DNA of 64,000 bases from Pseudomonadota bacterium (GTDB lineage: Bacteria > Pseudomonadota > Alphaproteobacteria > GCA-2731375). The position numbers were made by a program, and so were the translations under genes. Positions 18,034 to 21,462 of the stretch are shown piece after piece. Within the stretch, counting starts at the first letter, position 1, and every line of letters starts with the position of its first letter. The stretch lies in contig JAQBYC010000005.1 in the NCBI GenBank assembly GCA_027623205.1, forward strand, positions 20,209-84,208, given 5' to 3'. Under the pieces are notes generated by a model. It saw only the letters and a list, made by a program, of their open reading frames with translations, was not told where the DNA came from and ran no database searches.

Positions 18034-18819
18034 TTACGTTCGCAGCGTTACGCCGAAGCGGTCCTTGAAGGCCCGGCGCAACGCATCAAACCGCACGCCG
18101 ACCCGAATCACGGAAAAATCGCGGAAATCTACGATAGTCGAAGATCGACCCTGATGGTTGGCATATTGCGACAGGCCGTAATCGAAGGCGATGTCGGCGG
18201 CGGCGCGGACGACATCATCAATATCTTCCAGGCGGTACTTGCTGCCTGAAAGAGACAGATTGGCCGACGAACCGAACACCGGCATCTCCCGCTCCCACGA
18301 CTCATGGGCGATCACGTCGTGCAAGTGCCCGGCGTTCAGCAGCATATCCAGGGTCCCCGCCTTGGACGAGGATTGCAGTACGAAGGGATCGACATTTTGC
18401 AGAACGGGATGCGCCTCGCGAAACGGCGCCACCACGGAAAACGGCAACCCCACCGCCTCGACCATTTCCCGCACCATGGCGTGCTTTTCCTTTGCCATGA
18501 CATGCAACTGCCGGCTCATGGCAAAATTCCCGAACATACCGCTTGGTTTTTCGTAACTGCGCTGCTTGGCATCGAAAATGCGGCGAACGCCCTGGGTCGT
18601 CGCGGCCAAAATGGCATAGGCCACGTCCAAGGGCGCAATCGCCACGCCGCCGTCGGCCAGGACATCCAGCAAGGCATTGGCGTCAGCCCGAACCCGTTGC
18701 GCGTTCATCGGATCACCTGTGCGCCGCTCGTCCGGACTGGCCGGAACAATGGCTGTTTCCGCTTCAATGACCGGATTTTCCACCTTATTTGGTGCCGTAC
18801 AGGCGGTCACCGGCGTCAC
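18034..18819 (-). CDS. Sua5/YciO/YrdC family protein
   Basis: [54 protein letters not shown]. Confidence 0.8.
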
Positions 18820-19420
18820 CCAGGCCGGGCAGTATGTAGCCGATGTCGCTCAATTGCCGGTCGATGGCGGCGGTCAAAATGGGTACATCCGGATGAGCAG
18901 TGGCAAAGGCCTCGATCCCTTCCGGCGCCGCCACCAGGGCGACGAATTTGATCCGCCTGGCACCGGCCTCCTTCAGGCGGCTGACGGCGGCGGCCGCGGA
19001 ATTGCCCGTCGCCAGCATGGGATCCACCACGATCACCTGCCGCTCGCCGATGGAATGGGGCAGCTTCAGGTAATATTCCACCGCTTCCAGGGTATCGTGA
19101 TCCCGGTACATGCCGATATGGCCGACCCGGGCGGCGGGAATCAGATCAAGCATGCCCTCCAGCAAACCGTTGCCAGCGCGCAGGATCGACACCAGGCACA
19201 GTTTCTTGCCATCCAGAACCGGGGCCTCCATCGCCTCCAACGGCGTCTCGATCCGAACCTGTTTCAGGGCCAGATCGCGGGTCGCCTCGAATGCCAGCAG
19301 CAAGGCGATCTCGCGCAACAATTGCCGGAACGCCGCCGTTGATGTTTCGACCCGCCGCAGCAAGGTGAGTTTGTGCTGGATCAGCGGATGATCCGCAACC
19401 GTCACATTCGGTGCCGCCAT
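18785..19420 (-). CDS. upp: Uracil phosphoribosyltransferase
   Basis: [60 protein letters not shown]. Confidence 0.95.
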
Positions 19421-19619
19421 GCTGTGTCGCCCCTCTGTATAATTTGCGCCCCAGTGTAACCACAGGCCCGGGCGGGACATAGCCCCTTCACCGCATTTCG
19501 GCCCGAAATCAATAAAAATCGAAGGTGAACCTGGCACGTCCTGCGATCCATGGCGCCGTTACATTGTTAACCGCTCCTTAAGGTTTAGCCGCCAGGGTAA
19601 CAATGCCCTGCCCTATGCG

Positions 19620-19722
19620 GGGAGCGAACCACGAAAAGGCAAACCGTCGGCAACGGCGGGACGCAAAGCCACCGGTCCAACCAGCCCACCCGGGGTTGCG
19701 GATAGCGGAGCCATCGAAAAGG
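19620..19722 (+). ncRNA. Cyclic-di-GMP-I (GEMM-I) riboswitch
   Basis: GGCAAACCGTCG-GCAA-CGGCGGGACGCAAAGCCACCGG: P2 stem CCGTCG/CGGCGG closed by GNRA loop plus invariant GGGACGCAAAGCC; 3' part GGATAGCGGAGCCATCG; directly 5' of a flagellin ORF. Confidence 0.85.
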
Positions 19723-19734
19723 AAGACGCAGACA

Positions 19735-20553
19735 ATGGTAAGCTCCATCAACACCAACACTGGCGCCGCGATCGGTTTGCGGCAGTTGTCGGCGGCCCGC
19801 GACAACCTGGACAAGACCCAAAGCCACATTTCCACCGGTAGGAAGATCAACGCGCCCAAGGATGATGCCGCCACCCTGGCCATCGCCCAGCAGTTGTTGG
19901 CGACTTTTTCCGGCACGGTAGCAGTGCGCGATGGCCTGAGCCGGGCCAGCGCCACCCTTGATGTCGCCGTGGCCGCGGGCCAGTCGACCGCCGGCATGCT
20001 GGTCGAGATGAAGGGCCTGGCGGTACAGGCCAATCAAGAAGTGCTGGATCAATCATCGCGTAATGCCTTGAATTCCGCCTTCAGCGCGCTGCGTGATCAG
20101 ATCGCCACCATCAATGACAGTGCCAGCTTCGCCGGCAGCAACCTGATCGCCGCGGGCGCGGTCGATCAGAATGTCCTGAGTGACGAAAACGGCGGACGCA
20201 TCAGCGTCCGCGCCCAGGATCTATCCACCGGCGGCCTCGGTGTCACCGGTCTTTCGCTGGATACCTTTGGTAACGCCACCGGCGCATTGAGCGCCCTGGA
20301 TACAGCGATCACCGATGCCATGGCGAAACTGGCCGACCTTGGCAGTTCCGCCAAGCGCATTGAAACCCACGACGACCTGCTCGGTATCCAAAACGACACC
20401 TTGCGCGCCGGCATCGGCAATCTGGTCGATGCGGACTTGGCGGCGGAAAGTGCGGCACTGCAATCCAATCAGATCAAGGAATCTCTCGGCGTGATCAGCC
20501 TCAGTATCGCCAATGCCGCCCCCTCGCGGATGCTCGCGCTGTTTGGCGGTTAG
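19735..20553 (+). CDS. Flagellin
   Basis: SSINTNTGAAIGLRQLSAARDNLDKTQSHISTGRKINAPKDDAATLAIAQQLL N-terminal D0/D1 and C-terminal D0; ATG at 19735 chosen because it follows the riboswitch and an AAGGAAG SD. Confidence 0.93.
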   Translation: MVSSINTNTGAAIGLRQLSAARDNLDKTQSHISTGRKINAPKDDAATLAIAQQLLATFSGTVAVRDGLSRASATLDVAVAAGQSTAGMLVEMKGLAVQANQEVLDQSSRNALNSAFSALRDQIATINDSASFAGSNLIAAGAVDQNVLSDENGGRISVRAQDLSTGGLGVTGLSLDTFGNATGALSALDTAITDAMAKLADLGSSAKRIETHDDLLGIQNDTLRAGIGNLVDADLAAESAALQSNQIKESLGVISLSIANAAPSRMLALFGG

Positions 20554-20680
20554 ACCATCTTCTGGACTGACTCTCCCGCCCGCTCCTCCTTCCAGCCACG
20601 CCCCAGTAGCTCCTGGGATCATAGTCCCCTGTGTGGCCGGGGAGCGGGTGGCCTGGTCACCCGATGAAAATCGAAAACTT
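20552..20680. repeat. Diverged copy of palindromic repeat (copy C)
   Basis: TAGACCATC...CCCGCTCC...CCCCAGTAGCTCCTGGGATCAT...GGGGAGCGGGTGG...GATGAAAATCGAAAAC; matches copies at 54.04 and 63.93 kb. Confidence 0.7.
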
Positions 20681-20790
20681 TTGGCGCACACTCTGACAAT
20701 TTTGGTTCGTCTTCCCATGGCCCTCAAATAGAGCATGGCCCCCTCGCGGTATTTCCGCCTAGTATCAACGAGGAATATTGGGAGCGGACC

Positions 20791-21462
20791 ATGGCAGAGA
20801 TTAGTTATCCGGCGGACTGGCGCGACATTCCGCCCGCGCAATTCGAAAGCATGCTGCTGACGCCGGCGCAATATACCGCCATGCGGGCGGAACGCCTGGC
20901 GCGGGAGGAGGCCGCACCCGAGGTAGGCCAATTGGCGCCGGACTTCGCCCTGGAGCGGCTCTCGGCGGAAGGCAAGCGGACCGGCGAGTTGGTTGGCCTG
21001 TCGGACAGTTTTTCAGGGGCCCGGGGCCGCCCGGTCGGCCTGGTCTTCGGCTCCTACACCTGACCGCCCTTTCGCATTCAGGCCGTGCGCCTGAACGAGA
21101 TCGCGGGACAGTTCAAGGACCGGGTGGATTTTTATTGCATCTATATCCAGGAAGCCCACCCCAATGACGGTTGGCAGGTGCAGCAAAATCTGGAACAGAA
21201 CATCATCCTGAATGCGCCCGACACGATCGACGAGCGCGCCGCCATCGCCGAGGTCTGCATCCTGCGCCTGAACATGGCCATGCCCATGTTACTGGACGAT
21301 ATGACCGATCAGGCGGACAGGCTGTATAACGCCCTGCCGGAGCGTTTGTACCTGATCGATGACGCCGGCGTCGTGCGTTTCAAGACCGTGGCGGGTTCCA
21401 GGGGCTTCAAGCCCGAGGACTGGGCCGCGGCCATTGCCGATCTGGTGGGGCCGCCAGGTTAG
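20791..21462 (+). CDS. Iodothyronine deiodinase-like selenoprotein, UGA (Sec) at codon 91
   Basis: ORFs 20791-21063 and 21085-21462 are in frame with a single TGA at 21061-21063; read-through gives GLVFGSYT-U-PPFR...VDFYCIYIQEAHPNDGW, matching the deiodinase Sec site (FGSxTUPPF) and the EAHPSDGW motif. Confidence 0.92.
21077..21095 (+). promoter_or_regulatory. Candidate bacterial SECIS hairpin
   Basis: TTCAGGC-CGTGC-GCCTGAA: perfect 7-bp stem, 5-nt loop with G at loop position 2, loop about 20 nt after the UGA. Confidence 0.75.

Follow-up and report, generated by a model that had tools for sequence, protein, structure and literature searches.

A GEMM-I riboswitch probably controls translation of a specialised flagellin paralog within a small regulon of one alphaproteobacterial family

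Can a second messenger decide, through the leader of a single mRNA, whether a filament protein is made? The question is raised by a flagellin gene of an uncultured alphaproteobacterium (assembly of 5.0 Mb in 228 contigs), which lies in the 64,000-nucleotide stretch of DNA analysed here (the window). An earlier note had read the leader of this gene as a c-di-GMP-I (GEMM-I) riboswitch that would act on translation. Our own reading, to which we give a probability of roughly 0.7, is that a c-di-GMP-I riboswitch, presumed to bind its ligand, governs how a single, specialised flagellin paralog is translated and belongs to a small family-level GEMM-I regulon.

The identity of the aptamer is clear. 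Positions 19628-19718 of the forward strand match RF01051 (c-di-GMP-I, GEMM-I) over the full model (1-87 of 87) at 56.2 bits and E 2.6e-8 (cmscan, Rfam 15). The gathering threshold is 35 bits, so the low score that was to have counted against the riboswitch did not occur, and no other Rfam family passes its threshold anywhere in the window. The hallmark motifs named from the letters alone are all in place: GGCAAACC begins at 19638, GGGACGCAAAGCC occupies 19658-19670, P2 is capped by GCAA, and the distal AGCGG and CATCG lie at 19704-19708 and 19712-19716. As a hallmark CATCG is only partly apt, for the motif is there but includes a U where nearly all examined GEMM-I RNAs have C92 (pocket positions are numbered after Vc2). 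The closing helix P1 is present, with CG/CG here and AG/CU in two relatives (G006 and G009), a compensatory change that supports the helix. At the base of P3, the Rfam alignment has two non-standard pairs, A-C and C-A. With its score, full-length match, G20, A47, and P1, the RNA is a member of RF01051. It is a real GEMM-I riboswitch of a kind already known, its location is conserved and makes biological sense, and it would be expected to bind its ligand. It has in common with Vc2 of Vibrio cholerae the full-length covariance match, the G20 and A47 contacts, the GNRA-capped P2, and the C of the conserved interhelical pair. It differs from Vc2 in the U at 92, in the A-C and C-A pairs at the P3 base, and in abutting the Shine-Dalgarno sequence; J1/2 is also one nucleotide shorter than in Vc2 in leaders reading CGAAAxGG.

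At what level might such an aptamer act? Its final CGAA runs straight into the Shine-Dalgarno sequence AAGGAAG (19719-19725, forward strand), just as the earlier note described, and the ATG follows at 19735. The 16 nt between aptamer end and ATG become mostly 13-16 nt across eleven orthologous loci, all of which keep the placement on the Shine-Dalgarno sequence. Because the aptamer ends there and a terminator would not fit, control is likely to act on translation; this was the level first proposed, it remains the natural reading, and position supports it well. Since the aptamer directly precedes the flagellin gene, c-di-GMP can probably decide directly whether the filament protein is made. The broader claim that second-messenger level is linked directly to filament production holds in part: the aptamer sits on the ribosome-binding site at 11 loci, but the gene encodes one flagellin of several, a fast-evolving paralog, and the aptamer carries C92U. 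Owing to that substitution, plain high-affinity sensing of c-di-GMP should not be taken for granted.

The regulated gene (19735-20553, forward strand) encodes a flagellin of 272 aa with both Flagellin_N (PF00669, 2.1e-22, 80.1 bits) and Flagellin_C (PF00700, 4.6e-12, 46.5 bits) domains. An in-frame ATG at 19603 would lengthen the ORF to 316 aa and run it across the aptamer; we rejected this N-terminal extension because the orthologs are 272 aa long and start MVNSINTN-like, and the upstream frame is open over varying lengths. The closest solved structures are the Caulobacter-type FljM/FljL/FljN (PDB search, E 2.8e-48). Caulobacter FljK/L/M/N share with this protein their size (about 272 aa), their sequence, and the alphaproteobacterial CtrA lineage, and we know of no GEMM-I riboswitch on these genes. 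The flagellin had been called solitary, which is true of the window, where no other flagellar family was found among about 50 ORFs tested, but not of the genome, in which four of the five flagellin matches lie on other contigs. The 11 aptamer-bearing orthologs group in a single clade (support 99/97, recovered in 98% of bootstrap trees). By contrast, the aptamer core is upstream in 0 of 23 other flagellin rows, which include partial copies of the same gene and are mostly shorter-branched. Thus, the riboswitch marks one specialised paralog, and the protein is a distinct, fast-evolving member of a set of several flagellins.

The order of upp (uracil phosphoribosyltransferase, opposite strand), riboswitch, flagellin, and deiodinase gene (18785-21462) is kept in several genus members, and in some the flagellin gene adjoins a Sel1-repeat gene that is itself preceded by a GEMM-I aptamer. 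The iodothyronine-deiodinase-like gene (20791-21462, forward strand) contains an in-frame TGA at 21061-21063, in the context FGSYT-TGA-PPF. With this TGA read as selenocysteine, the entire protein matches PF00837 (1.5e-24). Just after the TGA lies a strong hairpin (z -2.95), relatives keep the TGA, and the genome has a tRNA-Sec gene; the product is a probable bacterial selenoprotein.

Is the flagellin aptamer an isolated case? The genome holds three GEMM-I aptamers, and a search of 60 relatives found 2-5 in each of 10/10 genus members and 4/4 family members. In a phylum-wide sample, 24 of 299 genomes had a GEMM-I match, and the only alphaproteobacterium among these 24 was the genome of the window itself. 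Across the genus and family, aptamers typically lie directly before the Shine-Dalgarno sequence of five classes of gene: those for the flagellin of 272 aa (11 genomes), for a CheY-like receiver of 136 aa, for a Sel1-repeat protein, and for two proteins without a match to a known family, one of 76 aa and the other a hydrophobic protein of 56 aa. The two other aptamers of the window's genome precede a short ORF and the conserved 76-aa protein (G000:C95, L052; MELNLSPSS...DSDTGxNIDLSV, no Pfam or NCBIfam match). At G000:C129:96366-96446 (L001), the 56-aa protein of relatives is reduced to 31 codons, which looks like a frameshift or an assembly error. The genome also encodes 7 GGDEF and 5 EAL domains. 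The recurring aptamers establish a small GEMM-I regulon in this alphaproteobacterial family. In the open literature searched, we found no direct report of GEMM-I on a flagellin gene. The named relatives are metagenome-assembled genomes, and some have sample names that indicate the Black Sea (150 m) and the Arabian Sea.

The leaders of this regulon also have a promoter feature in common. A perfect CtrA-type box, TTAACCGCTCCTTAA (TTAA-N7-TTAA), lies at 19567-19581 on the forward strand, 46 nt upstream of the aptamer, and may bind CtrA; it is one of 29 perfect boxes in the 5.0-Mb genome. All flagellin leaders have such a block, with 0-2 mismatches, 44-55 nt before the aptamer, and most leaders of the other classes have a similar one. 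Perfect boxes occur in 8/43 GEMM-I leaders, where dinucleotide shuffles lead one to expect 0.21, and boxes with at most one mismatch in 32/43, where 3.7 are expected, a contrast that shared ancestry overstates because related leaders are not independent. In this assembly, ctrA is represented only by a C-terminal fragment located where a contig ends (NF045991, 1.8e-29). A CtrA-regulated promoter calls for such a box close by and for ctrA in the same genome, both of which are present here, and we infer that CtrA controls the flagellin promoter. A block aligned among flagellin promoters contains a weak candidate for the -10 element, CAGGGT (19593-19598, forward strand; TAGCGT-like in relatives). 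At the presumed 5' end of the transcript lies a hairpin, P0 (CCCUGC-CCUAU-GCGGGG, 19606-19622, forward strand), which has counterparts of differing sequence in the majority of flagellin leaders and in several leaders of the Sel1 class.

In which direction would the switch work? Transcription from the CtrA-type promoter would give a leader of about 135 nt, in which binding of c-di-GMP would close P1 (C-G/C-G). The segment GCG-AA-CC-A-CG (19624-19633, forward strand) could form the 5' strand of an extended P1, its CG pairing with CG at 19715-19716. Closure of P1 puts CC (19629-19630) opposite the Shine-Dalgarno GG and GCG (19624-19626) opposite CGC (19727-19729) before the start codon, and these strands would most likely pair. 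Pairing of the Shine-Dalgarno sequence would block ribosome entry, and high c-di-GMP would turn the flagellin off. We favour this OFF direction because of these facing strands and because all 18 aligned leaders keep the CCA before P1 and the ACGC ahead of the ATG unchanged. It is also in line with Cd1, the GEMM-I RNA before the Clostridioides difficile flagellar operon, which is an off switch (PMC4744006). Both RNAs are placed on flagellar genes; however, Cd1 precedes an operon, whereas the RNA here, from an alphaproteobacterium, precedes just one structural flagellin gene in a translational layout where a terminator has no room. We consider it reasonably likely that high c-di-GMP shuts off translation of the flagellin.

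The opposite direction, an ON switch, is rather unlikely. Here nt 92-93 and their flank would pair with the Shine-Dalgarno sequence in the free RNA (a CC/UC-GAAA-GG mini-hairpin), and the ligand would draw nt 92-93 into the pocket and P1, free the ribosome-binding site, and raise translation. Many leaders have CCGAAAGG as the 3' strand, which could form a GNRA mini-hairpin on the Shine-Dalgarno sequence, and folding finds such hairpins in the free state. Moreover, Vienna folding of this leader predicts that P1 closure exposes the Shine-Dalgarno sequence (0.89 versus 0.38), a sign opposite to that of the OFF reading. Across leaders, forcing or blocking P1 had no consistent effect on accessibility. 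Against the ON reading, the loop of the mini-hairpin varies from GAA to GAAAA, the hairpin is broken in G006 and G009 (UCUCAGG), and U92 weakens it. Flagella are also usually repressed by high c-di-GMP, and the precedent of Cd1 points the same way. Exchanging 5' and 3' strands between leaders caused no significant loss of pairing, either in a wide-window duplex test or in a narrow test with P1 closed. Since neither test separated own from swapped partners, covariation does not show the helix that would sequester the Shine-Dalgarno sequence, and with no help from the strand-swap or folding tests, the direction of the switch is something we infer.

What, then, does the pocket sense? The equivalents of G20 (19638), which reads one guanine of the ligand, and A47 (19665), which stacks between the ligand bases, are consensus. 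The equivalent of C92 (19714), which pairs with the other guanine of c-di-GMP, is an off-consensus U (all three on the forward strand). U92 occurs in 8/11 flagellin aptamers, spread over three genera of the family, whereas C92 is found in 32/32 aptamers of the four other classes in genus and family (Fisher p ~1e-6, uncorrected for ancestry). C92 is likewise present in 42/43 aptamers from Pseudomonadota genomes outside the genus, the lowest-scoring of which are less surely aligned, and U also appears in a few aptamers that fall outside the gene classes, in other members of the family or the taxonomic class. Site 92 has changed more than once within the flagellin class, since the most distant family member (G014) has U92 and three genus members have C92. 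C92 is less conserved than A47 (PMC9049102). As a ligand contact rather than a strict family criterion, it bears on the claim about ligand and affinity, which U92 lowers, and not on membership of RF01051 by Rfam's criterion.

In Vc2, changes at positions 20 and 92 impair c-di-GMP binding and alter specificity: G20A binds cGAMP, and G20A/C92U binds c-di-AMP (PMC7288161, PMC9049102). C92U could mean lost affinity, a raised threshold, or a shifted ligand preference, and together with the two non-standard P3 pairs it could make ligand binding weak or altered. It probably raises the c-di-GMP level needed, in which case the flagellin would respond at higher levels than other genes of the regulon. 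An unlikely extension is that the flagellin aptamers are a natural G20/U92 subtype with shifted affinity or preference (weak c-di-GMP or c-AMP-GMP sensing), such that sister switches on CtrA-driven motility genes differ in threshold or ligand within one genome. That the RNA here has changed its ligand, G20 and U92 suiting a mixed G/A dinucleotide (3',3'-cGAMP), or that it binds c-di-GMP only weakly, we regard as quite improbable: the class-specific U92 and the Vc2 mutants speak for it, but three orthologs (G001, G005, and G007) keep C92 before the same gene. The natural cGAMP sensors known to us have A20, not U92. The Geobacter 3',3'-cGAMP variant, also changed at a ligand-contact base, has A at 20 and C at 92, where this aptamer has G and U, and so position 20 lacks the A that defines that subclass. 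Another Pseudomonadota genome (G084:C36, L128 and L138) has tandem GEMM-I aptamers 222 nt apart, both with the cGAMP-type signature A20. Finally, a degenerate relic kept by chance is highly improbable: the score is below that of most sister aptamers, and there are two P3 mismatches and U92, but the core motifs, the Shine-Dalgarno spacing, and the compensatory P1 change are kept across genera though flanks differ, and 11/11 clade members retain the aptamer.

Why does a translational riboswitch on one flagellin matter? GEMM-I RNAs are rare in the sampled Alphaproteobacteria, where c-di-GMP has mostly been studied through CtrA control and protein receptors. To the first reading of this leader, our analysis adds a genus-wide regulon, CtrA-type boxes, a dedicated flagellin paralog, and a class-specific C92U. 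Sister aptamers that naturally differ, C or U, at a base contacting the ligand offer a ready set for studying how threshold or ligand choice is tuned in nature. Throughout the genus, GEMM-I RNAs seem to occupy the ribosome-binding sites of genes that have CtrA-type promoters, an arrangement that would join a cell-cycle regulator, acting on transcription, and a second messenger, acting on translation, on the same mRNA.
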